Source: Halorubrum vacuolatum
GTDB lineage: Archaea > Halobacteriota > Halobacteria > Halobacteriales > Haloferacaceae
DNA: 64,000 nucleotides
Direction of reading: 5' to 3'
NCBI RefSeq assembly: GCF_900188065.1
Contig: NZ_FZNQ01000009.1
Coordinates: forward strand, 1-64,000
The notes below the pieces were generated by a model. It saw only the letters and a list, made by a program, of their open reading frames with translations. It had not been told where the DNA came from and made no database searches. This document shows, one piece after another, positions 1,954 through 19,241 of this stretch (position 1 is its first letter; each line of letters begins with the position of its first letter). Made by a program: the position numbers and the translations under genes.

Positions 1954-4900
1954 GTGCCCATTACCCATCCGATGCGTTATGCGACGTGGCTTGAGCAGCG
2001 TGTGAATTCTCGGCTCAATGCTCTTGCAGATGCGGCTGAGGGAAATCAAAGTCTTCGTGATGCGTATGACGCTGAATTAACTAGCCATGGAAATAGCGAG
2101 GAGAAGATCGCTCGAAGTCATGAAGGAAGAGAGCTGATTGAATTAATACAAAATGCTCGGGATGCCATTCAACCGTCCGGGCCGGGCCAAGTCTATGTCG
2201 GAATCCTTGACGAAGGGATCCTAGTAGCGAACACTGGCAAGCCGTTCGATCTACTCGACGAAGATACGGAGCGAGCGGTGAAAATGATTGGTGAGTCCAA
2301 TAAGACGGATCAAAAAGATGATGAAACAGCCGGCGTCGATTTGGACTCTGATTCTGTCGGTCACATTGGCGTCGGTCTCAAATCGACCGTTGCCGTCGGG
2401 GACGACTTTGAAGTCTGGTCAAGACGCGCCGAGGATTCGGATACCCTACGCGTTAGGTACAGTCGAGCTTACATCACTGCAGCGGTCGCAGCACGGTTCG
2501 GCCATGAACTACCAGCTGAACTAAATCTCGATGATGGACTAATAGGACCCTATTATGAAGCCGCTGAGAACGGTTTGTTTGATCCGCATGAACAGTTCAG
2601 CAGTGATCCCGTCCCCCTGAATGATGATCTCGGGAAAGCGCCTTTATTCTGGTTTCCGTGGCCGCTTGACCCGTCGTCACCTGGCCCATCGAATGCGACG
2701 CTTGCAGACCGAGCGAATAAGCTGCTGACTGCACCGCAGGAAGCTCTTTCTCAATTCGCAGAACCGCCCTCGGAACCGTTCCGAACGGCAGTCTTTATCG
2801 AATACAGGGACGATATGTGGCGGAAGTTGTTATCCGCGTTTGATATTCCGACTCCGATTGAGCCACCAAACGACCCAGCTGCGAGAGCCGATGAGCTTTG
2901 GGGTAAACTGTCGTATCACGGTGATCGGGCAGAAGGATTCGATCCAGAGACACTCATCAATCTCGGTAAAATAGATGATCTGTATCTTGAGCGAATTCCT
3001 CAAGAAGCGACTAATGAAACGGAGCACTGGCACGCCACTGAGACGACGCCCCAACATACAATTCCAGATGCGGGCATAAAGCATCGTAAATTCAAAGTCC
3101 AAATAACAACTGATGGTGGGGCTCAGTCGTTGACTTACGACAGTTACACAGCAGAATGGAATGGGACTGAAACGACACGACCACGAATCATTATTGAGCG
3201 CCCACGTACGGATGCAGATGGAACCGCGCGAGCAAGCTATCCGTTACATCTCTATTATCCTATTTCATCTACAGATGATGCACTCCCAGTCTGTTTCCAC
3301 GGTCGGTTTCGAGTTACGACAGAGCGGAAAGATCTGAGCAGGAGTAGCGCTGAACACAACCAACGTGTCCTCAAGCACGGAGCAGAACTTTTCGGGCGGG
3401 TTGCGGGCGGAACAGCCATGCTCGCGTGTGATCCCGATACAGTAAATCACTGGAACCGGTATCCGTGGCTGTTGCTACCTGATACAGGCCCGGATCTGGA
3501 TAGCGCGCCCCAATCACTAAAAGACACACCTGATCTCATTGCTCACTTTCATCGACAAATTGTCGAAGAACTACGCGAAGCGGTTGCAGTTCCAACAATA
3601 AACGGGCCTGAAAAGGTTGATAACATCATATTATATCCGTCGGGATCTGTTTTCAAATCGATCGCGGCATCTGTTGAGCTCGCAGAAAAGTCTGGAACTA
3701 CAGCGATAACGACGGGAACAGATCCGGTTCCGACATCGGAGACACTCCGGGCTGCATTGACGCTGCAATCAAAACGAGACAACCCAGAGCGCCAGTCTCA
3801 GCGGTGGGAAGCATTCGTTGGGACAGAGCGAGCAACGACAGCGCTGAAAGAGTGGGCACAATGGCTGAGTTTCAATCTCACCGTCAACGAATCATCTGCA
3901 TCGGAAACGTATGTGCAAACTCGAACTGTTAATCAACGCCACGGACAAGAACTCTTCGGGGGGCTGATAGAACTTGTCGAAGAAACAGCCGCTGAGCTGG
4001 ATATATCGATTGCAACTCTGTTGAAGAAAGATTGGTTGGCGGACACGCTTCCGGGAGTGTATTTACTCCCCTGTGAGCAGGCTGGAAGCGATGAAACGGT
4101 TGAACTCGTGCCAATCGAACCGAGTCCCAGTGGTCAGATTGAGCGGGGAACCCAATCAACGCGAACCGTACTCTGGGGATTAGACCGCGAGTCACTGCCC
4201 TTTTTTTACCCCCCAGAACACGGGGAGTTCGATGTCTTCTTTTTTGATCAGGAGTCCCAACGCGGAGCGACAGATGTACTGAGCAAGGCTGGTAAGACTC
4301 GTACATGGGGTGTTCGTGAATACAATGACCTTCCGAATCTGTTCGAGGCCTTACTGCAGACATTCAAATCATCGAAGCGTGATCTTGATCTCGGGAGCGT
4401 TGCAGCTCTCGCTACGCTTGTCCCAAATCTAGAAGTCGATTCTAAAGGACTGGGTCAAACCGAGCTTTCCGTCGGCAGTCGCTCACACTTCGTCAGCGCA
4501 TTATCCAATACAGATCGTCGATCACTGCTTCGACTCCGACTCGGGGTCCGTCGATCGGCGATTCGCGGAGCGGCTTTCCCCGACACGAAGCTATCTGATT
4601 TCTCACTACCTGATTCTTGGCAGCAGCTCCGTCATGAAGCGCTTCAGGCAGCTACAACAGATTCAGGGGCCGGCTCGAACACGCCAGAGGAGCCAGAATG
4701 GCAGGCTACCGGCGAATTCGGTCCAACCTCATTCCCCGATCCAACAGGAGATGCCGATGCTTGGGCTGGGTTTCCAGAAGACTTGACAGAGACTGAAACT
4801 CGTCGTGGACTTGCTCGCGCGATCTCGTTACTCGGCGTCAGTAGTCTCCCTGGCATTCGGTATCTTCCGCTACATGGGGAAACACATCCGCCACTCGACG

Positions 4901-7900
4901 AGGGAGTTCCTCACTGGCATCCCTCAGAATGGAGTGATGATACCCTGCCTGCTTGGGCAATGACTCACCGGGAAAGTCTTCGCTCAGCAATCGAAGCTAC
5001 TGATTACACACAATATATTACGAGCTATAACTACCATCCCAAGACGACGATCAATCATCTCGGGTGCGAAAGGGCTCCGACAACTGCAGACTCATCGCAC
5101 CAAGAATCGTATCTTATCGGTTGGACATGGTTCGACCCAGCCCAGTTAGCGACACTCAAAGCGAGTCCGGAACGGGTTCGGGCACTTCTTGATAGGTATA
5201 GCAACGAGTACCGTCAGAATCTGCTCACAACGAAGTGGTATTGCCGTCGGTATCATGGATGCTCGATGAGAGATACAACCGTCCCAACGGTCGCAAACCT
5301 ACAGCTACGACAACTGCCGATTTGGGACTCCATCGTGAAGATAACCGACTCGCTTGAGGATCAGCAATCCTGGGAGTCACAGCGATCTCAGCTTAGTTGC
5401 GCTGTTATTCAGACAGAAAGTGGCGGTAGGGCAGGATGGCGACTATTCCCACATGTTGATCCTGACGATGAAAATGTGATTATAAGTGAGTCACTTCTCG
5501 CTGAATTTGGTGTTGTTCCGCTTGGTGAACTGAACGTTACGGGCGCAGAGCATCGGCTGCAGCAGGTACAAGCGGTACTAGCTGATGTTGATACAGATGA
5601 GTTGCAAGAAATAGACGAGCCAGTTCAGCTCTCAATTCCGTCCTCACAGGTAGAAAATTGGAAGCGGGCGTACTCACAGCTACTTCGCCCGATCCTTGAT
5701 GCGTGGGATTCACCAGATGACGCTAATGCAGTTGAGGCGAAATTGGATGAGCTATTATCCACGCTCACGCATATTCCACTAAAACGAGAAGAAGAGTGGT
5801 ATACGGCATCTATCGAGTGGATTCGTGACCACGGCGGATCAGCTGTCTGGCGGTACCCGCGTGAAAACCCTACCCGGTGGGTGCAAACAGCACTCTCGAC
5901 TGCCTATGACGACCGACCAGGGTACCGGTTTGAACATCCAGTTCAACAGGCAGGGTTTGCTGAGTTCGCTGGTACGGCACTTGACATTCCATCGATTTCG
6001 GCCACGGAACCGCAACTGTCCGCTGAGGAATTTACTTCCCGAAAACGTCCTACAGGCGAGTTTGTAAGCCGGTCAAAACTAGAGGAGTGGACTGATAAGC
6101 TCGAAACACGTCTACCGCTTCTTTTGGCTATTATTTCGGCACGAAGTCACGACCGTCTTCAGTCTGCTGCAGAAACGCTTCAAGTTGGAATTAACAACAT
6201 AGCTGTTATAGAGCAGTTACCGGCCGATATTCGCGCTGATCTTTCTGATCCCAAATCCGTCACGTATCTACTTCCAGATGAGAACGGGCCAAACTCTCAC
6301 GACGAGCAGCGGAAAGGGATCGCTATCGTTGCTTCCGAGGTCGGCACGCCAGCCATCGGAGACCTTACTCAGGCAATTGCACTCCTTACGAAGCAGTTCG
6401 GACACCTGGGAACGATTCAGCATGTATTAGAGGCGGATGAGTATACCCAAGCACGTCGCCGACTTGAAGGAACATACCCTGTTGAGGATGCCGAACTATT
6501 CCTTGAGGAACAGCGCCGAACCAATCTTCGAAACCGCCTCGAACTTGCTGCTGATCTGCTTGATTGGCTCGAATACCAGCGACCACCGGTCGAGGGGGCA
6601 GCAAAGCAGTTGCAGGAGAGATCAAACGAAGAGACTGATCTCTTTGAGCGACTGAGTATTGATGTCCGAATCGACAGTGACCTTTCTGAACTACCGGATG
6701 AGCTTCAAACGTATCTCAACTGTTGCCGCAGTGCTGACCAGGCGGTTCAAGAGATAATTGCACTACTTTTCAACCCTGGACCTGAGGGGGCTACGGCGAT
6801 TCGTGAACGAATCATAGAACTCCCACCAGGGAACCGTAAACAAGACCTCATCGAATGGTTCGCCGTTCATTCGCGTGAACTACCCGGTGATTTTGTTCCC
6901 TTGGCGCTCACTAACCAGTGTCGTCGGTTATCACACATCGACGCTGTGTGGATCGAGACGGATGCGGATTTCGTCCAATCACCGACTGATTGGCATGAGG
7001 CAGTAGAAAGCAAGGAGACGACGCTAACTTGGCACAAGGAACTACCAGGATACGCTTCCACCCAGGAATTCGGGACGTACTGGCTCGATCTCTGCAAAGG
7101 CGATCGCGTTACTGCACTACTCGACTGTCTTAAGTCTCAACTCACGAGTGAGATTCCGGATCAGACAGCAGCCGCTGTCTGCGATTACGTTATTGACGGC
7201 AAGCAGCTACCATCGCCGACTGAAGCGTCAGCCGATCATAAAGAACGAGCCTTTGCGTCTGCAACAAACTATCTCCGTAACAATGAGATCCATTCGCTAG
7301 ATATTATCGATGATAAGTCAGTACCTGATACTGTTTCCCCTGAACCTTCTGATTCAACTAAACCCACCGGTGGTCCTGGCGGACAACCTCAATCTTTTAC
7401 TGGCAGAGGAGAACTTGCTGAGGTTGCTGTCACACTCGAAATCCTAACTCGCACTGCTGCTTGGTTAGAAGAAGAATCGGGACGCGGAGAGATACTTATT
7501 GAGCAATTTAACAACTTGTATCAGACACAAACTAAAGACGGGAATAATGCTGTTAATTATAAATGGCATACTGAACGTCGCTGGGACCGCGATCTTCTCC
7601 AGCTACTCAATCAAGATTCAGAACGGCTTTTGAACGAGTTCATTAACTGGCAATCATCAATTTCAACCGACAGCTCCCTTGCTGATCTCGCGTCGGTTGC
7701 GTTGCTTGACGTATCAGAAGAACGAGGCCCAGGATTCGATATTATCGATCCAGTAACACGAGATGGTACCTCGTTTTCGCCACGCCCGGTCGAGATTAAA
7801 TCCGTTGCAACTACTAACCCACCATTTAGCATCCGTTTATCTACCAACGAATATCAACAGTGTAAGCTCCACGTGAGTCAGTCAGATCACCCGTATATAT

Positions 7901-8064
7901 TACGTATTGTCTACGTCCCATCTGATAATCCAACGATCGCTGCCTCAAAAGACGTTGCAACATATCAGATCACGAGTGTTGACGAACTCAATGCCGTCGT
8001 CGGAGAGCCATTTGATATGCAGGTACGTAGCGGCTATCTCCGACCCACACTTGACAAAAAGTAA
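1954..8064 (+). CDS. Giant sacsin-like GHKL ATPase with C-terminal NOV/DUF3883-like domain
   Basis: A 2036-aa protein. The N terminus holds a GHKL (Hsp90/sacsin-type) nucleotide-binding fold: the N box ELIQNARDA (Asn67), an altered G1 box VANTGKPF (about 91-98) and the G2 box GHIGVGLKS (about 136-144). A middle of about 1700 residues has no recognisable domain and no membrane segments. The C terminus (about 1850-2010) resembles the NOV/DUF3883 domain, with GFDII (Asp1929) followed by VEIKS (Glu1947, Lys1949), a D-x(17)-ExK spacing like that of PD-(D/E)xK nucleases. The GTG start at 1954 fits a leaderless transcript; an ATG at 1972 is the alternative and removes six residues. Known relatives with this layout occur in mobile and defence contexts. 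I infer a large ATP-gated sensor or effector. Its function is unproven. Confidence 0.85.
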   Translation: MPITHPMRYATWLEQRVNSRLNALADAAEGNQSLRDAYDAELTSHGNSEEKIARSHEGRELIELIQNARDAIQPSGPGQVYVGILDEGILVANTGKPFDLLDEDTERAVKMIGESNKTDQKDDETAGVDLDSDSVGHIGVGLKSTVAVGDDFEVWSRRAEDSDTLRVRYSRAYITAAVAARFGHELPAELNLDDGLIGPYYEAAENGLFDPHEQFSSDPVPLNDDLGKAPLFWFPWPLDPSSPGPSNATLADRANKLLTAPQEALSQFAEPPSEPFRTAVFIEYRDDMWRKLLSAFDIPTPIEPPNDPAARADELWGKLSYHGDRAEGFDPETLINLGKIDDLYLERIPQEATNETEHWHATETTPQHTIPDAGIKHRKFKVQITTDGGAQSLTYDSYTAEWNGTETTRPRIIIERPRTDADGTARASYPLHLYYPISSTDDALPVCFHGRFRVTTERKDLSRSSAEHNQRVLKHGAELFGRVAGGTAMLACDPDTVNHWNRYPWLLLPDTGPDLDSAPQSLKDTPDLIAHFHRQIVEELREAVAVPTINGPEKVDNIILYPSGSVFKSIAASVELAEKSGTTAITTGTDPVPTSETLRAALTLQSKRDNPERQSQRWEAFVGTERATTALKEWAQWLSFNLTVNESSASETYVQTRTVNQRHGQELFGGLIELVEETAAELDISIATLLKKDWLADTLPGVYLLPCEQAGSDETVELVPIEPSPSGQIERGTQSTRTVLWGLDRESLPFFYPPEHGEFDVFFFDQESQRGATDVLSKAGKTRTWGVREYNDLPNLFEALLQTFKSSKRDLDLGSVAALATLVPNLEVDSKGLGQTELSVGSRSHFVSALSNTDRRSLLRLRLGVRRSAIRGAAFPDTKLSDFSLPDSWQQLRHEALQAATTDSGAGSNTPEEPEWQATGEFGPTSFPDPTGDADAWAGFPEDLTETETRRGLARAISLLGVSSLPGIRYLPLHGETHPPLDEGVPHWHPSEWSDDTLPAWAMTHRESLRSAIEATDYTQYITSYNYHPKTTINHLGCERAPTTADSSHQESYLIGWTWFDPAQLATLKASPERVRALLDRYSNEYRQNLLTTKWYCRRYHGCSMRDTTVPTVANLQLRQLPIWDSIVKITDSLEDQQSWESQRSQLSCAVIQTESGGRAGWRLFPHVDPDDENVIISESLLAEFGVVPLGELNVTGAEHRLQQVQAVLADVDTDELQEIDEPVQLSIPSSQVENWKRAYSQLLRPILDAWDSPDDANAVEAKLDELLSTLTHIPLKREEEWYTASIEWIRDHGGSAVWRYPRENPTRWVQTALSTAYDDRPGYRFEHPVQQAGFAEFAGTALDIPSISATEPQLSAEEFTSRKRPTGEFVSRSKLEEWTDKLETRLPLLLAIISARSHDRLQSAAETLQVGINNIAVIEQLPADIRADLSDPKSVTYLLPDENGPNSHDEQRKGIAIVASEVGTPAIGDLTQAIALLTKQFGHLGTIQHVLEADEYTQARRRLEGTYPVEDAELFLEEQRRTNLRNRLELAADLLDWLEYQRPPVEGAAKQLQERSNEETDLFERLSIDVRIDSDLSELPDELQTYLNCCRSADQAVQEIIALLFNPGPEGATAIRERIIELPPGNRKQDLIEWFAVHSRELPGDFVPLALTNQCRRLSHIDAVWIETDADFVQSPTDWHEAVESKETTLTWHKELPGYASTQEFGTYWLDLCKGDRVTALLDCLKSQLTSEIPDQTAAAVCDYVIDGKQLPSPTEASADHKERAFASATNYLRNNEIHSLDIIDDKSVPDTVSPEPSDSTKPTGGPGGQPQSFTGRGELAEVAVTLEILTRTAAWLEEESGRGEILIEQFNNLYQTQTKDGNNAVNYKWHTERRWDRDLLQLLNQDSERLLNEFINWQSSISTDSSLADLASVALLDVSEERGPGFDIIDPVTRDGTSFSPRPVEIKSVATTNPPFSIRLSTNEYQQCKLHVSQSDHPYILRIVYVPSDNPTIAASKDVATYQITSVDELNAVVGEPFDMQVRSGYLRPTLDKK

Positions 8065-8321: not shown

Positions 8322-8603
8322 ATGAGTACCACGGTTCGCATCGTAAAAACGCCCGACGTGCTTCACGGAAAGCCCCGAATTGAAGGGACGCGCGTCGGCG
8401 TCTTCCAGATCGGCACTCTCGTACGGGAGCGAGAGTGGTCCGTCGAAGATGCGGCTGCGCAGTTTGATATTGATGTCAGTCAGATTCAAGCTGCCGTTGA
8501 ATACTATGACGAGCATCCAGAACTGATGGAAACCCTGCAGGCACAAGAAGAAGCCCGGCAGCAGGCCATGCAAGCGGAGAGTAGGTGTGCAGATCTCAAG
8601 TAG
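8322..8603 (+). CDS. DUF433-family antitoxin
   Basis: A 93-aa protein with the DUF433 core HGKPRIEGTRVGVFQIG followed by WSVEDAAAQFDID and AAVEYYDEHPEL, the usual helix-turn-helix-like layout of this family. DUF433 proteins are typically the antitoxin and autoregulator paired with a PIN-like toxin. The stop codon touches the ATG of the next gene with no gap, so the two are translationally coupled. A TATA-like tract near 8284-8294 places the transcript start about 5 bases before the ATG. The C-terminal helix (QEEARQQAMQAE) is probably the toxin-binding segment, by analogy. Confidence 0.88.
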   Translation: MSTTVRIVKTPDVLHGKPRIEGTRVGVFQIGTLVREREWSVEDAAAQFDIDVSQIQAAVEYYDEHPELMETLQAQEEARQQAMQAESRCADLK

Positions 8604-8930
8604 ATGCAAATCCTCTGCGATCAGAACGTCCCGCAGAAGTACGTAGATGCGCTGAGTGATACTGGTGGCATCACTGTTTCCACGGTCCGGGAGAAACTTT
8701 CTGCCGACGCTTCAGATCAAGAGATCGCCATGTATGCTGCAGACAATGACTGGGTGATCCTCACGAACGATAGCGACTTCTTTGGTGACGGCCGCGAGTT
8801 CGGACTGCTCGTGTACAGCCAACTTGAGGACCCACGTCCCGGCGAAATTATCGATGCAGTTCAGGCTATCGACTCCGCTTACGAAACAAATTCCGAAGTC
8901 GTAGAAGTAGTACCTGATGGCTGGGTATAG
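8604..8930 (+). CDS. DUF5615 PIN-like toxin
   Basis: A 108-aa protein of the DUF5615/Mut7-C type PIN-like family. It begins MQILCDQNVPQKYVDAL with the first acidic residue (Asp6), continues with SDQEIAMYAADNDW, and has the central ILTNDSDFF motif that supplies further acidic metal ligands. PIN-like toxins are Mg-dependent ribonucleases. The gene is directly downstream of and abutting the DUF433 antitoxin, the standard order for this TA type. Size and motifs are intact, so the pair is probably functional and may stabilise the mobile element. Confidence 0.87.
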   Translation: MQILCDQNVPQKYVDALSDTGGITVSTVREKLSADASDQEIAMYAADNDWVILTNDSDFFGDGREFGLLVYSQLEDPRPGEIIDAVQAIDSAYETNSEVVEVVPDGWV

Positions 8931-9121: not shown

Positions 9122-9183
9122 GATCTTCGTCAAGTAGCACGTACTATGTATCTATACGTGGGAGTTGACGAACCACCAGAGTA
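9122..9183 (+). pseudogene. Relic of the C-terminus of a primase/helicase gene
   Basis: The bases closely match 14822-14880, the 3' end of the large primase/helicase gene: shared runs include GCACGTACTA and CTATACGTGGGAGTT. One extra base between these runs shifts the frame, so the product would not read through. The surrounding 8931-9263 interval (333 bp) holds no other gene that I can support; weak protein-like text between 9030 and 9090 may be further decayed sequence of the same kind. Confidence 0.6.
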
Positions 9184-9263: not shown

Positions 9264-11483
9264 CTACCGGAGTTCACTTAGTCGGCGCTGATCAGCGTCG
9301 GTAAGCAGTTGGACATCGTATTCGTCCTCAAGTCGGGCAATTTCTTCGAAGCAGTCGTGGGCTTCTGCCTCGTCTCCCTCGGCGAGATGCTGCTTGCCCT
9401 GCTGTCGTTTGACTTTCGCTAAGCCCTGTTTCCCAGCGTATCGAGGCAAGGTTCGACGGTAGTACTGAGCTGCCTGGTTAAGATGCTCCCACCACTCATC
9501 TGTCACGCCCACTTCCTGTTTAGTCGTCTTGGCGAGCTTCCAGTGTGTTTCCGCGAGTTGCCCTGCGACGTTCCGTTCTTCATAGTCTTTTGAGGCTAGT
9601 TCCATCGCCTCTTCCAAGAGACTCACTGCTTCGTGGATATCTGTCTCTGTGCTATCCTCAAGGAGTGTCTCCAACCGGGCTTGGCGTTGCAGTCCCTCGC
9701 TTTTCCAGATGACGTGGCCGCCGAGGTCAATACCGTATGCTGAGTCATCGTCGGGTGCACCGAGTTGAAGCATCCAAGTGCCGTTACGATCGATGAATTT
9801 GAGCTGCTGGACGTTTCCGTGCTGGTTTTCATGCCGAAGTAGCTGTTCACCAGCGGAAACGTCAAACAGATAGGTACTGCAGTCAGGATTGAACGTACTA
9901 GTGGCAGCGTATTTTCCATCGGGCGTGATTGCAACCGGCCCGATGTTCGAGTCGAACTCGTGTTTTACGAACTGGTGGCCAGACTCGTTGAAGATGTGGA
10001 AGGTACCGGAAAGTGTGTCACCCCAGTCAGTCCAATCGACGACCGCGACAGTTCCGTCGTTGGCAACAGCACAAGCGTTCGGCCGGTCGATCTCGGTCGT
10101 GAATCGGAGTTCGTCGTCCTCGAAGAGGAACACACGGCCGGATTCGAGGTTTTTGTCTCCAGTTCCGGACCGCCCATCTTGATACGCTGCAATGTATTCA
10201 CCATTCGGGGCTGTGGTGGTCCGAGCGTAGTACCGGTTGTCGCCGTATTCAAATTCCATGCGATTGATACCCCGATCAGTCGTTGAGATAGCATCATCAT
10301 CGTGCTGTGAGGCATCTCCCAGGTCAGGTACACTCTCAGTCTGCGTGTCTGATGCGTAGGACGAGGTGGCTGATGCTGTTTGAGACTGTGAATTGGTCTC
10401 GGAATCAGAGTATGTTTCCGCAGTCGTCGCGGTATCCGGAGCAGAAGAGGAGTCTGTTTCTGGATCATTATTCGCCGACCCGTCGATTGAGCGGCGTCGC
10501 CACAGATACAGACCAGCAGGGATGATCGCAAGCAGCCAGATGAGTGACGTGACGACGTATGCCCACCAGTACTGCGGCCAGTCATAGGATTCTCGGACGT
10601 GTCTCGCGTCAAGAAAGAGTGCTACTGGGAGTCCGAACCAGACGGTGAGGAAGGTGATGGCCCACAGTGTTTCAGGTAGCGTTTCGACGCCGAAGAACGC
10701 GACGATCCAGCCTGGAATCGCTACTATGATGACTTTCTCCCAGAGTGTGGACGGAACTGGTCCCGAGCGTGTTTCGGTCCCTAGTTCTGATTCAGGTTGC
10801 GCCGTCGGTTCAGCTGTCTCTTCTTGAGAATCGTTTACCGCATCTGTTTGCTTCTGTGGATGCTCATTACTATGTTCAGACTCAACTGTCGTCACGAACT
10901 CAAGGTAGTTATCCACGAGATCGAGTGCGTCGTACTCAATGACGAGGGATACGAGGTTATCGCCATTGATGAGTTTCACGTTGAGCCGGTCCGCCAGATC
11001 ACGGGCTTGGCTGGTAAATTCGTTTGTCGTCACCAGGACAACCTTATCGACGCCACTGTATTGCTGGCCGAGACTCGCATACTGCTGAATATCAGGAGAT
11101 CCAACAGTCGTGTTGGGTCCATACCGCTTTGCCTGAATCAGCGTCGTCTGCTCGTACGGGTGTTGTTTGCGAGCGGTAACGTCAACCCCTTCGTCCATTG
11201 CTGCCGAAGAAACCTCTGTTTGCCAGCCCATGCGGTCCCAGAGATCCGCGATGAAGTGCTCGAAATCGTACGGATCCATCTGCTGCAGAACCGTTTTCAA
11301 CTCATTAGCGTTTTCAATCGGACCGTCATCAAGCGGGAGTTCGTCAAGGCGGTGCTGTGTGGACTGGGGTGACGGCTCATTTGAGTCGCCTGCGCGTGAG
11401 GAGTTTGAGTTATCGTCTTTCCCAGCGTTTCGAATAAATCGGTACAGTTCTCGGTAGAGGAAGTAGCGTAGAAATCGTTTCAT
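9264..11483 (-). CDS. Membrane-anchored Mrr-type restriction endonuclease fused to propeller-like and helical repeats
   Basis: A 739-aa protein. Residues about 60-195 are an Mrr-like nuclease: DPYDFEHFIADLW, then EGVDVTARK (Asp101) and LIQAKRYG (Gln117, Lys119), the D...QxK form of the PD-(D/E)xK site, then the Mrr-type KVVLVTTNEFTSQA. Hydrophobic segments at about 250-265, 272-292 and 305-327 anchor it in the membrane. After a Ser/Thr-rich linker, residues about 410-595 contain repeated beta units (GPVAITPDGKYAATS and similar) resembling a beta-propeller, and residues about 600-735 are helical TPR-like repeats. Mrr enzymes cut modified foreign DNA. The membrane and sensor parts are unusual and suggest action on incoming DNA at the envelope, which is inference. 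Confidence 0.85.
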   Translation of the reverse strand: MKRFLRYFLYRELYRFIRNAGKDDNSNSSRAGDSNEPSPQSTQHRLDELPLDDGPIENANELKTVLQQMDPYDFEHFIADLWDRMGWQTEVSSAAMDEGVDVTARKQHPYEQTTLIQAKRYGPNTTVGSPDIQQYASLGQQYSGVDKVVLVTTNEFTSQARDLADRLNVKLINGDNLVSLVIEYDALDLVDNYLEFVTTVESEHSNEHPQKQTDAVNDSQEETAEPTAQPESELGTETRSGPVPSTLWEKVIIVAIPGWIVAFFGVETLPETLWAITFLTVWFGLPVALFLDARHVRESYDWPQYWWAYVVTSLIWLLAIIPAGLYLWRRRSIDGSANNDPETDSSSAPDTATTAETYSDSETNSQSQTASATSSYASDTQTESVPDLGDASQHDDDAISTTDRGINRMEFEYGDNRYYARTTTAPNGEYIAAYQDGRSGTGDKNLESGRVFLFEDDELRFTTEIDRPNACAVANDGTVAVVDWTDWGDTLSGTFHIFNESGHQFVKHEFDSNIGPVAITPDGKYAATSTFNPDCSTYLFDVSAGEQLLRHENQHGNVQQLKFIDRNGTWMLQLGAPDDDSAYGIDLGGHVIWKSEGLQRQARLETLLEDSTETDIHEAVSLLEEAMELASKDYEERNVAGQLAETHWKLAKTTKQEVGVTDEWWEHLNQAAQYYRRTLPRYAGKQGLAKVKRQQGKQHLAEGDEAEAHDCFEEIARLEDEYDVQLLTDADQRRLSELR

Positions 11484-14700: not shown

Positions 14701-14965
14701 GGAACAAGACGAGGAAGATGGGCGTCGAGTCGTATGGCGTGATGAAGGCCTTCATTGCCTCGGCGAGCACGGCGATGTAGACCTCGATTCCGTCGAACTG
14801 GAAGAGCTTGATGACGATGAGGAGATTCGTCAACTGGCACGTACTAGCACCTATACGTGGGAGTTTACGAACCTGCCCGGAGAAAAACCGAGCCCCAGTA
14901 CTCAATCCGATCACTCGCCATCAGCTGGTGACGGTCAGCGGGGGATCGAAGGTAATCCTACGTGA
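11741..14965 (+). CDS. Primase-polymerase-like / helicase replication protein of the element
   Basis: A 1074-aa protein from the ATG at 11741; a TTG at 11720 would add seven residues. Residues about 85-215 show the archaeo-eukaryotic primase pattern: FIDGDNIRDPETG (about 118-130), SGTGIH (about 153-158) and SIEIYA (about 193-198) followed by VTTG. A P-loop-like VEALPTMGKSYG lies near residue 435 and a DExx-type AVVFDEFTD near 575, indicating a helicase or ATPase core. CHEHEHQRCPY near 535-545 may bind metal. The C terminus (about 935-1000) is a winged helix. The long AT-rich region upstream has a TATA-like tract near 11692-11699. It is the likely replication initiator or primase of the integrated element. 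Confidence 0.82.
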   Translation: MSSDQHDSKTNSDKSNGTSRQPSVRTGAWNEVDFTNPETDTYPSAWLEREQWMGHRDKRPFAPWGDQDHPEAAPGVDARYKWSLSENYLDGEEIAVVEDHPSLDGRVFIQHEEDPFAFIDGDNIRDPETGEVHPTFIAILEHLGLTYADVSISGTGIHAPYLAPDGLPIDGKEQASFPIDTEPWGTNDELPSIEIYANTHVCVTTGLHVPGTPGDIREWNADALESILRANGYDDTPEVNHDTNRDWSDLDEYEPDATAVDETTEDVRDVLAAIDRLRPQDVPLETHPVGTDSTGWETWDPSTYRYSSGKDSLHTPDRKTFYDHKQGETFGVLKLFALEQGILSRPGERLAGEKWWEAIEKAREAGAPIPRYVGEPEPVGVLPPAKRDLTIAASGWDWRQAAKQDEETLTVSEARQRTTDAIAKAYTSYQRVLVEALPTMGKSYGAVKAAAETETPVTILTGRGHKEQYDQFTKWCDEFDLKYYTLPSFTRHCSTANGTHGDDWADTVLNWYVRGATPKKIHKTAEYVLDRPLPCHEHEHQRCPYSDKWDFEPDEFDVLIGHYAHAYKPKVTIGRAVVFDEFTDTYETTLDSNLQRAVSYWLEATPEVPFDSYTDLIENRDDQDRRGQALHWFIHNGIEPDEMSVFDDDSAHAAAPIAVYTLLASDDLGNGFEHAEIDDGGVAVFNREVGEVSILHTPGLDYASSVVALDGTPTKRMWELALGESLTYRPVLEKEERAEYIRDALNLNLVRTTEYIKPYNPRPEYAEDRIAIEKDAALLDAIVEKHDQRPALITTTTALREYDRAGVIDFDLTAATGDRVKDGPVDCVKWYGDVLGSNEFDETRLGVVIGSNHYGDEFIKKWGAYAGQAVERNGEKGSELSYGRFGDQVLQHMREHDTLQAAMRFGRDGRGAVVYVHTDTLPEWVPLVGEGRVVTTWSDGMKAVVHALEELGEATTAAIVEHPAVDLSRQQVFNHLETLRERGVLTREQDEEDGRRVVWRDEGLHCLGEHGDVDLDSVELEELDDDEEIRQLARTSTYTWEFTNLPGEKPSPSTQSDHSPSAGDGQRGIEGNPT

Positions 14966-15974: not shown

Positions 15975-17099
15975 TTACTGCATAGCTTTCTGATAGTCCC
16001 TCGCTATTTGGGCGTCATCGTCTTCCACGTATGCCATCGTCTGCTGTATACGGGCATGACCGGCGATCCGCCGCACCTGATGCAGATCTAATGACTCACA
16101 ATCGTTCACCCAATGCGAGATCGCTGAGCGGCGAATCCGATGAGTGGTCACAAACCACTCTTTAACCTCGTCATCGGGGGTGGGATTAGGTGGCCGTAAC
16201 GGACGCTGCACTCCGGCATTCCTAGCAGCCTGTTTAACCACATTATTGATCTGCGGTCCCGGCATCTCGTTCTTATGTGTGGTGACCAGAATACGTCCGG
16301 AGTTGGGTTCCGCTGCTGAAGAAAACGAATGCCTAACCCGAGTACACCATCGTTTGAGCTGGAAACGGAACTCTTCGGGAAAGTAGACATCCCGTCGGAT
16401 CTGTCCGCTGTGTTCTTTTACGTTCAGCTTCGCGCTCCGAACGTTGATGCTACACTCATCCCAGTCAATATTCTCGATTCGTAGCCTCGATAGTTCGACG
16501 CTCCGACAACCAGTGTACCAATTCAGACGGACCGCAATCTCGTTGCGTTCTTTGGTCGGTCGTGTTTTTCCCGGCACCGAATCGAAGAGGCGTTCTACCT
16601 GTTCCGGTTTAAGAGCCAAAATCTCCCCTGCACCATCCCGAACACCCTCAATATCGCCTGCAGAAAGATCGTGTTGTAGCTTGTACTCAGCTTTGTTCTC
16701 GAAAATATCGTAATCCTGCTTGAGGTCGATCGTACGCTTGTCCGGGCACGGATGTCCATTAGCGAGTTCAAGCCGATCGTCTGCAGCATCATTCTCAACG
16801 ATGCTGTAGAACGACTGTACTGAGCGGTAATACGAGCCAATAGTCGTATCGGCCAAATGCGTGTTTACTTGGATGTATCCTTTAACATCCTCTGTGGTAG
16901 CCGCAAGGGGATCAATATCGTTTGACTCACAAAACGCCAGCCAGTAGCGGACCTCACGTCGCCGTGTATCGATCGTTGACTCTTTTGTACGCTCTTTCTG
17001 CTGTTGTAGACTGGAGAGATACCGTCCAAGCAACTCTTCCATCTCTCCCGAAATCTGTTTGTCTTCGGGACTAGCGTACTGACCTTTGGTATTTCTCAT
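15975..17099 (-). CDS. Tyrosine recombinase / integrase
   Basis: A 374-aa integrase of the XerC/D superfamily. The N-terminal SAM-like DNA-binding domain (about 20-105) includes ESTIDTRRREVRYWLAF. The catalytic domain carries all six expected residues: Arg199 (TGCRSVEL), Lys224 (SAKLN), His320 and Arg323 (THRIRRSA), His348 (AGHARI) and Tyr357 (TMAYVEDD). I chose the ATG at 17099 because it overlaps the upstream stop as ATGA; a start at 17111 would add four residues. It is coupled to the RHH gene and is probably intact, catalysing integration and excision of the accessory region. Confidence 0.92.
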   Translation of the reverse strand: MRNTKGQYASPEDKQISGEMEELLGRYLSSLQQQKERTKESTIDTRRREVRYWLAFCESNDIDPLAATTEDVKGYIQVNTHLADTTIGSYYRSVQSFYSIVENDAADDRLELANGHPCPDKRTIDLKQDYDIFENKAEYKLQHDLSAGDIEGVRDGAGEILALKPEQVERLFDSVPGKTRPTKERNEIAVRLNWYTGCRSVELSRLRIENIDWDECSINVRSAKLNVKEHSGQIRRDVYFPEEFRFQLKRWCTRVRHSFSSAAEPNSGRILVTTHKNEMPGPQINNVVKQAARNAGVQRPLRPPNPTPDDEVKEWFVTTHRIRRSAISHWVNDCESLDLHQVRRIAGHARIQQTMAYVEDDDAQIARDYQKAMQ

Positions 17100-17716
17100 A
17101 GTCGCATCCAATGTCGTTTACCGCTCACAAGCCCACTGTGGACGTTCTCTGTCGTTTCATTTTCGAGGTAGCAGAGCGCTTCTCTGACGAGGTAGGTGTG
17201 TTCTTTCATTTCGGTTGAGAATCGTTGCGCACGCCCATCGATCGATAACTGCGGATCAGCACGGCTGGCCTCAACGATGTAAGAGATGTACTCTTGTGGT
17301 TCTCTACCCCCCATACCATCCATTTCTCTGAGTACACGGTCAGGGATGTCGTTTGGATAGGTCGGTAGACGTGGGAGAAGGTCCATGGCGAGGTCCTCGA
17401 TGTCCCTGTCAGAAATTTCACCTGCTTGAGGAGCGGACATTGTATCGACCTTATGCTCAACAGAGGTCAAAGACTGACGAAGGTTCTCAAGCTGATCAAG
17501 GACTGGAGAGAGGTCCGCGTCGCCATCACCAGCGGTCACAGCGAAATCGTCGATCGCTTGTGTCGGAACGTATTCGTCATTAACTTCTCTGTCAACTGCC
17601 CTACGGACGAGTGACGAGAGTGTCTCGTCGTCATCAAGGGCGTCTTGCCACTCCTTTTTCTTACTGGGAGTGACCCGGACGTTGAGTTTGACTTTCCTGT
17701 GGGCACCGTCAGGCAT
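17096..17716 (-). CDS. RHH-like DNA-binding protein coupled to the integrase
   Basis: A 206-aa protein. Residues about 8-48 look like a ribbon-helix-helix module (KVKLNVRVTPSKKKEWQ, then ETLSSLVRRAVDREV). Residues about 65-95 form a short coiled coil (DQLENLRQSLTSVEHKVDTM), and the rest is helical with PNDIPDRVLREM. Its stop codon overlaps the integrase ATG by four bases. This layout suits a regulator of integrase expression or a recombination directionality factor. The promoter is probably the TTTATT tract at about 17735-17746, which also serves as the T-rich tail behind secY. Confidence 0.8.
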   Translation of the reverse strand: MPDGAHRKVKLNVRVTPSKKKEWQDALDDDETLSSLVRRAVDREVNDEYVPTQAIDDFAVTAGDGDADLSPVLDQLENLRQSLTSVEHKVDTMSAPQAGEISDRDIEDLAMDLLPRLPTYPNDIPDRVLREMDGMGGREPQEYISYIVEASRADPQLSIDGRAQRFSTEMKEHTYLVREALCYLENETTENVHSGLVSGKRHWMRL

Positions 17717-17734: not shown

Positions 17735-17768
17735 TCAATAAATAAAGACTGGGACCCCAATGGGGTTA
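17735..17768 (-). terminator. Terminator-like hairpin behind secY, overlapping an element promoter
   Basis: On the minus strand the secY stop codon runs straight into a hairpin with stem ACCCC/GGGGT (17754-17766), followed by TCTTTATTTATT. The same T-rich tract is placed about 25 bases before the RHH gene start, so it may also be that gene's TATA box. Confidence 0.55.
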
Positions 17769-19241
17769 CTCTCGGCCGAACATCTGGCGCATCATCGGAT
17801 GCATCTCCATCAGCTGTTCTTCGGCGATCTCCTCGTACAGCTTGTACGTGATCGAGACCGCTAGCAGCAGTCCAGTTCCCTCGACACCGCCGATAGTGCC
17901 GAGCATGTTCGCCATGACGGCGAGCACGCCGACGAGCGCACCACCGATGACGGTCACCTGCGGGATGTACCGCTCCATGACCTTCTCGACGACCTGTGGA
18001 TTACGCCGGAAGCCGGGGATCTGCATCCCGGAGTTCTGGATCTGCCGCGCGGTCGCCTCCGGGCCCATGCCGGTCGTCTCGACCCAGAAGATCGCGAAGA
18101 TCGCGCCGCCGATGACCATGAACGTCAAGTCGACGGTGATCCGGACGGCGATCATCCACGGCTCAACACCTGCCGGAAGCTCCCCGAGGAACCACATCCA
18201 ATCGGTCGGCTGATGGATGGGGTTCAAAAAGTAAAACAGGCCGTCGATAGGCTGCCCCTGCTCGCCGTAGACGCCGAGCCATGCGGGCATTCCCGCCCAC
18301 TGTGAGTGGAGGATCTGCCCGAAGAACTGGATGTTCGCCTGCAGCGCACGCACGAGGATCATCGGCAGGACCGACGCGTAGATGAGCTTCACCGGGAACC
18401 GACCCCGAGCACCCTTCACGCGGGCGTGGGAGAGCGGGATCTCGACACGAACCGACTCCGCGTAGACGACGACGGCGAAGATAAACACCGTCGTGAACAG
18501 GGCGAGCACCTGCCCGGGATCGAAAAGCAGCTGTTCGAGCCCAGCCGGCGTGAGCGGCGATTCGAGCGGTACGTCGCCGAGGATGATCCCGAACCAGCTC
18601 GCGAAGAAGCCGGTCTCACCGAGCGCCGAGAAGCTGAAGAAGCCGCCGATGATCTGCTGGCTCACCGCGGCGATAATGAACAGCCCGACGCCGGATCCGA
18701 CGCCCCACTTGCTCACGATTTCGTCCATGAACAGGATGAGGACCCCGCCGATGAACACCTGCGTGAATATCAGCAGCTCGACCCCGAACTCGCCGATCCC
18801 TAATGCGGCCGCGACGGCCGGATCGGATGGAAGGAACTCGCCGGTAAACACCATCGGTGCCGCCGTCAAGGCGGTGACGATGATGACGAGCAGCTTCTGG
18901 AGGCCCTGATAGAGGACCTGGTCACGTGGGTCGTTCGTATCGAGCCCGAGCAAGTTGGCACCGCCGAGCAGCTGCAGCACGATGGATGCCGTGACGATCG
19001 GGCCGATCCCGACCTGCAACAGCGAGCCGTGTTCGCCCGCAAGCACCGAGCGGAACTGCCCGAAGAAGTCCGTCCCCTGACCGGCCGCCAACCCGAACGG
19101 GTTGATGTTGGTCAGGAAGAAGTAGACGATCAAGATACCGGCCGTCCACGCGAGCTTCCGCTTGAACGGAACGTGACCCGCCGGACGCTCCACGACGGGG
19201 AGCCGCGTGAGCACCGGTTCGGCGACCTCCTTCCAGCTCAT
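17766..19241 (-). CDS. secY: Protein translocase subunit SecY
   Basis: A 491-aa Sec61-alpha/SecY channel subunit with about ten membrane segments. The cytosolic N terminus MSWKEVAEPVLTRLP leads into TM1; a plug-region sequence GTDFFGQFRSVLAGEHG follows, then GIGPIVTASIVLQLL (TM2a) and the loop DPRDQVLYQG. The cytosolic loop ESVRVEIPLSHARVKGARG (between TM6 and TM7) is basic and contacts the ribosome. It is the last gene of the spc operon, two bases after L15. The element's RHH-integrase genes follow after about 50 bases, where other haloarchaea continue with backbone genes. Confidence 0.97.
   Translation of the reverse strand: MSWKEVAEPVLTRLPVVERPAGHVPFKRKLAWTAGILIVYFFLTNINPFGLAAGQGTDFFGQFRSVLAGEHGSLLQVGIGPIVTASIVLQLLGGANLLGLDTNDPRDQVLYQGLQKLLVIIVTALTAAPMVFTGEFLPSDPAVAAALGIGEFGVELLIFTQVFIGGVLILFMDEIVSKWGVGSGVGLFIIAAVSQQIIGGFFSFSALGETGFFASWFGIILGDVPLESPLTPAGLEQLLFDPGQVLALFTTVFIFAVVVYAESVRVEIPLSHARVKGARGRFPVKLIYASVLPMILVRALQANIQFFGQILHSQWAGMPAWLGVYGEQGQPIDGLFYFLNPIHQPTDWMWFLGELPAGVEPWMIAVRITVDLTFMVIGGAIFAIFWVETTGMGPEATARQIQNSGMQIPGFRRNPQVVEKVMERYIPQVTVIGGALVGVLAVMANMLGTIGGVEGTGLLLAVSITYKLYEEIAEEQLMEMHPMMRQMFGRE

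Follow-up and report, generated by a model that had tools for sequence, protein, structure and literature searches.

Canonical Mrr, a type IV restriction endonuclease found in Escherichia coli and Haloferax volcanii, is a protein of ~300 residues in which an N-terminal winged-helix DNA-binding domain accompanies the Mrr_cat domain with its D...QxK motif. To our knowledge, the Mrr-type restriction enzymes known so far have been taken as soluble proteins. In H. volcanii, GATC-methylated plasmids were found to be restricted by Mrr (PMC6471742). Haloarchaeal genomes also harbor genes annotated as "restriction endonuclease" whose products are predicted to be membrane-anchored, with the same order of Mrr domain and transmembrane (TM) segments as the protein described here; these genes lack its propeller-TPR tail and some of them carry other N-terminal parts, e.g., a zinc ribbon (L054) or an extra domain (L055).

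A comparable layout is found in the beta-propeller vWA-MoxR ternary systems, ternary conflict systems in whose third component TPR and a propeller are joined to a membrane segment and to an effector-like part that varies (PMC7159879); the protein described here resembles this component in its layout. The Pbe system (PbeABCD, CxC-ATPase-DndE) was published as a four-gene system (PMC6459918), and a word search of a later re-analysis revealed no mention of a propeller or TPR (PMC10853773). In some of these operons, the gene after PbeD encodes a protein distantly related to the tail. The gene described here lies outside any such operon. The literature search yielded no paper that describes this chain.

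Domain architecture of the fusion protein

The window, a stretch of 64,000 nt at the start of a Halorubrum vacuolatum contig (NZ_FZNQ01000009.1), contains an intact open reading frame of 739 aa on the minus strand (9264-11483) that begins with ATG and is free of internal stop codons. A preliminary description had proposed that this single chain unites an Mrr nuclease with membrane, propeller-like and helical-repeat parts, and Pfam, hydropathy analysis, AlphaFold2 and Foldseek agree on this composition: an Mrr nuclease is followed by three predicted TM segments, a beta domain resembling WD40 and helices resembling TPR. AlphaFold2 was run on six sequences, and the tail was additionally modelled separately.

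The Mrr-type PD-(D/E)xK nuclease domain comprises residues ~59-193 (10905-11309, minus strand) and matches the Pfam profile Mrr_cat (PF04471) at residues 66-180 with an E-value of 5.9e-28 and a score of 97.7 bits, well above the gathering score of 21; a second match is to Mrr_cat_2 (PF13156, E 7.8e-15). It is modelled with moderate confidence as an alpha/beta fold, which in a Foldseek search also matches MspJI, while a sequence search found no solved structure related by sequence. The D...QxK motif is represented by D101 (11181-11183) and Q117-A-K119 (11127-11135), which are predicted to be catalytic. A weaker profile match (E 8.4e-8) was obtained to NA-iREase1, which is an inactive relative, and would fit a degenerate domain that serves DNA binding only. 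E75, D101, Q117 and K119 are, however, identical in all eleven fusions identified, which renders such a loss of activity very improbable.

No Pfam match to an N-terminal winged-helix domain was found, and the short segment formed by residues 1-58 is modelled as a helix and disorder. As the canonical N-terminal DNA-binding domain of Mrr is absent, the protein of ~740 residues is not simply an Mrr with additional parts. Its most suitable place is among the Mrr-type restriction nucleases, as a new variant. A conserved N-terminal helix (MKRFLRYxxYRExYR) was considered as an amphipathic anchor and dismissed, since 37% of shuffled sequences reached its hydrophobic moment.

The C-terminal tail follows a linker (residues 336-405) that is disordered in the AlphaFold2 model. 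Its first part, residues 407-594 (9702-10265), forms a beta domain of ~190 residues and 17 strands with a pLDDT of ~84. Foldseek aligns ~180 residues of it with ~four blades of WD40 propellers at E-values of ~1e-6, and the superposition on a G-beta5 chain of 186 residues has a TM score of 0.59. The earlier label of a propeller-like region is thus borne out with regard to the WD40-type blades, and has to be narrowed with regard to size, as the domain is short and comprises only ~four blades vs. the usual seven of a closed WD40 ring. The existence of free-standing proteins of 230-250 aa that consist of the beta part alone suggests that the four-blade domain may be complete as such.

The second part of the tail, residues 596-738 (9270-9698), is all helical and consists of seven helices modelled at a pLDDT of ~93. 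These helices had been described as TPR-like, in agreement with the model and with a TPR_12 match in a homologue (E 9e-4) that lies below the threshold; no TPR match above the Pfam cut-off was found. For the whole tail, propeller-plus-solenoid chains of COPI ranked first in the Foldseek search, with poor superposition. The tail modelled alone gave the same picture as in the context of the whole chain.

The hydrophobic part and its topology

Three stretches between nuclease and tail, on the minus strand like all parts of the gene, are modelled as hydrophobic helices: residues 246-268 (10680-10748), 271-298 (10590-10673) and 302-335 (10479-10580). Their pLDDT is only 50-60. The corresponding peaks of 19 residues are located at positions 251-269, 273-291 and 310-328, with mean Kyte-Doolittle values of 2.12, 2.04 and 1.99. 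With a mean hydropathy of ~2, conservation among the fusions and a length sufficient to cross a membrane, they are the probable counterparts of the three membrane segments noted initially. The designation as an envelope-tethered nuclease was retained with respect to the conserved membrane segment and reworded: the protein is better termed membrane-anchored, with a nuclease that is presumed to be cytoplasmic.

The distribution of basic residues around these helices is not uniform. The loop between helices 1 and 2 is almost devoid of them, the loop between helices 2 and 3 is basic, and helix 3 ends in a conserved RR(S) motif in which R330 and R331 are invariant. Under the positive-inside rule, the basic loop and the basic end of helix 3 are in conflict with each other in a plain three-pass topology. 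If the chain crossed the membrane three times with the nuclease inside, the tail would be located outside, while the arginine pair and the tail relatives that lack a membrane part suggest an inside location. A cytoplasmic tail is favored, because free tails show no evident export signal or membrane part and are encoded together with intracellular DNA enzymes. In that case, one of the hydrophobic segments would have to be re-entrant or peripheral.

The opposite arrangement would turn the protein into a transmembrane receptor with three true passes, whose outside tail binds a virus or a surface partner and whose nuclease responds inside. Three hydrophobic segments are indeed present, and the scarcity of basic residues in the first loop together with the basic second loop is what would be expected for a nuclease on the inside. 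However, the invariant arginine pair after helix 3 disfavors an outside tail, as does the lack of a clear TM segment in the stand-alone tails encoded beside enzymes that act on DNA inside the cell, and a receptor of this kind appears improbable.

Relatives of the hydrophobic part form the C-terminal portion of zinc-ribbon proteins of haloarchaea and the beginning of polytopic proteins. In particular, the three helices resemble a haloarchaeal membrane module (L122-L124) that is located C-terminally, after zinc ribbons, and ends in YLYRRH or YLWRRR.

Stand-alone tails and a candidate shared module

Both halves of the fusion also occur separately. The nuclease-membrane half alone was found in a few genomes (e.g., G000 on contig C27, G163 and the B1-Br10 MAG), and some genes of this type are located among housekeeping genes. 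Free tails are proteins of 336-409 aa that lack a membrane segment comparable to the one in the fusion. Weaker relatives of the tail extend to further archaeal families and, among bacteria, to Salinibacter and Sphingobium.

Analysis of the genomic context of free tails, which is more informative than that of the fused genes, revealed a recurrent location in DNA-defence settings. In four haloarchaeal Pbe (CxC-DndE) operons, located in G431 and G154 and on plasmids of Halobaculum rubrum and Halococcus dombrowskii, a distant tail relative is the fifth gene (L097 7101-8210; L098 7560-8666; L130 8986-10119; L133 8899-10080). The order is pbeA, (pbeB), pbeC, pbeD and tail, with the tail gene on the same strand and separated by gaps of ~6 to 80 bases. 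Neither the window nor any other locus with a fused gene gave a match to pbeA or pbeC. A free tail follows a Mre11/Rad50-like gene pair on the same strand in G069 (L051 6349-11004), and in G056 (L050 6117-10775) such a pair is divergent from the free tail, with a TmtA homologue on the other side. In G086, the tail is located after a methyltransferase gene, with a pAgo gene further on. On a Sphingobium plasmid (L132 8869-9984), the gene of a tail relative adjoins a CBASS gene and has an overlap with the end of an AbiEii gene. Other free tails adjoin UvrD or AddAB-like genes; as one of 20 arbitrary 16-kb stretches used as a control also contained an AddAB-like pair, this neighborhood is weak evidence of function. 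For plasmid-borne tails in Halosimplex and Natrinema, no recognised defence neighbor was found.

The proposal that the tail acts as a sensor or scaffold fits these relatives in Pbe/CxC-DndE, Mre11/Rad50-like and AbiE operons, and is kept here as a plausible role. Somewhat more tentatively, with chances that we place a little below even, the WD40/TPR-like module might represent a previously undescribed adaptor or sensor shared by several unrelated DNA-defence machines of haloarchaea and some bacteria, including a fifth component of Pbe/CxC-DndE. In the window, this module would then be fused to a membrane-anchored Mrr nuclease, yielding a one-gene defence system at the membrane. A concrete lead is offered by the tail, since this module turns up repeatedly in defence operons, several of which contain it as an additional gene.

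Distribution, neighborhood and proposed function of the fused genes

The search covered the family and the order of the host as well as GTDB contigs. The full order of domains without a stop codon is present in eleven haloarchaeal species of three families (f1, f7 and f9), i.e., in the window copy and in ten further genomes (G118, G098, G162, G226, G323, G464, G440, G203 and the MAGs LUM.70, G157, and A07HR60, G156). These eleven full-length copies rule out a chimeric assembly and also a single-genome artefact, the latter being a concern attached to the first reading of the locus. Identity to the window copy ranges from 76% (G226, which belongs to another family) to 37% (G203). Compared by region with the other ten fusions, the window copy is 67-88% identical in the nuclease, 39-79% in the hydrophobic part, 30-81% in the beta domain and 36-84% in the helices, whereas the three linkers are only 3-52% identical. 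As the parts and the catalytic residues have been kept while the linkers diverged, all parts, including the hydrophobic ones, are under joint constraint within a single chain.

Fusions occur patchily, in 11 of the ~560 genomes examined. Among the 392 genomes of the order sample, seven contain the fusion and 36 some form of the tail, and broken remnants were found in G139 and G107. The location of the best relative in another family, together with the lower similarity of the copy from the same genus (G118), suggests gene transfer. A simple origin from a single fusion event was not upheld: because the tail tree requires one or two changes between fused and free states and the tree of the nuclease half is poorly resolved, one fusion with subsequent losses and two fusions are both possible. 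No relative was confirmed in viral contigs, and the single match in a phage collection spans the Mrr domain only.

Since this build has been kept in at least 11 species and tail relatives are often found in antiviral gene clusters, a membrane-bound defence nuclease is probable. The specific reading that we prefer, a membrane-anchored Mrr-type defence nuclease with a cytoplasmic tail that docks on partners or senses infection, is given a probability of roughly 0.5. In this model, the Mrr-type domain would act as a cytoplasmic PD-(D/E)xK endonuclease, as suggested by the invariant D101, Q117 and K119, and the three-helix hydrophobic part would hold it at the membrane. The flexible, acidic linker would carry the WD40-like and TPR-like module available for docking or sensing, and this module may either recruit an infection signal or partner protein or be gated by it. 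Once allowed, the tethered nuclease would cleave DNA of foreign origin, which is possibly modified, in a manner resembling type IV restriction, with DNA that enters or replicates close to the membrane as its presumed substrate. The gene travels with mobile islands. A conserved membrane-tethered form of Mrr would suggest that restriction is placed at the membrane in some archaea.

Abortive infection would be a different outcome of a similar build. Here, the tail would sense infection or be restrained by a partner, and the freed nuclease would cut the DNA of the host itself, not just incoming DNA. Some plausibility is lent to this idea by beta-propeller ternary conflict systems, for which chains have been described that join TPR and a propeller to a membrane segment and an effector-like part (PMC7159879), and by the tail relative directly after AbiE genes and next to CBASS. 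In contrast, no gene for a cognate inhibitor or switch was found to be conserved beside the fusions, and a Pfam scan of the window neighbors detected none of the MoxR and vWA genes that define the ternary systems. An abortive effector is regarded as rather unlikely.

The preferred assignment to DNA defence can also be viewed in the light of the genes surrounding the fusions. In the window, the order is a TmtA-type gene, a DUF433/DUF5615 pair, the Mrr fusion, a primase-like gene, an integrase gene and secY; the designation of the gene between fusion and integrase as primase-like is our reading of its sequence. The first gene (1954-8064, plus strand) encodes a sacsin-type ATPase of 2036 aa, assigned to TmtA by PADLOC (E 0) and matching P_loop_sacsin of NCBIfam (E 1e-13). 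The DUF433 and DUF5615/PIN-like genes recognized by Pfam (8322-8930, plus strand) form a toxin-antitoxin-like pair. The tyrosine integrase of the island (15975-17111, minus strand; PF00589, E 2.1e-16) adjoins secY (17766-19241). A homologue of this integrase accompanies the fused gene in G440 (L091), a member of another family, which also contains a homologue of the 401-aa gene of the window. Located beside the fused gene of G440 are a DrmD/BrxHII-type helicase and a GmrSD-like protein, the latter named Orf5 and mREase_IV by PADLOC and presumably a DUF262 protein. McrBC is found near the fused gene of G118 and a type IIG/DrmMI-like enzyme near that of G323, while no defence gene was present in the stretches seen for three of the eleven fusions (G156, G157 and G203).

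The same context bears on the possibility that the protein serves DNA maintenance and not defence, as a membrane-associated nuclease that processes DNA ends or resolves plasmids. UvrD, AddAB-like and Mre11/Rad50-like enzymes near free tails function in repair too, and several free tails are plasmid-borne. The patchy occurrence, the decaying copies and the location together with McrBC, type IIG, TmtA and Pbe genes, however, argue against this function, which we regard as quite improbable.

Two further features of the window were observed. The 401-aa gene belongs to an unknown family (442-1647), and its homologue at L091 (8025-9257) is 31% identical. A direct repeat of 49 bases with 88% identity is present at positions 9126-9174 and 14826-14873; it corresponds to the end of the primase-like gene, a fragment of which recurs immediately downstream of the Mrr fusion, and is a trace of rearrangement.
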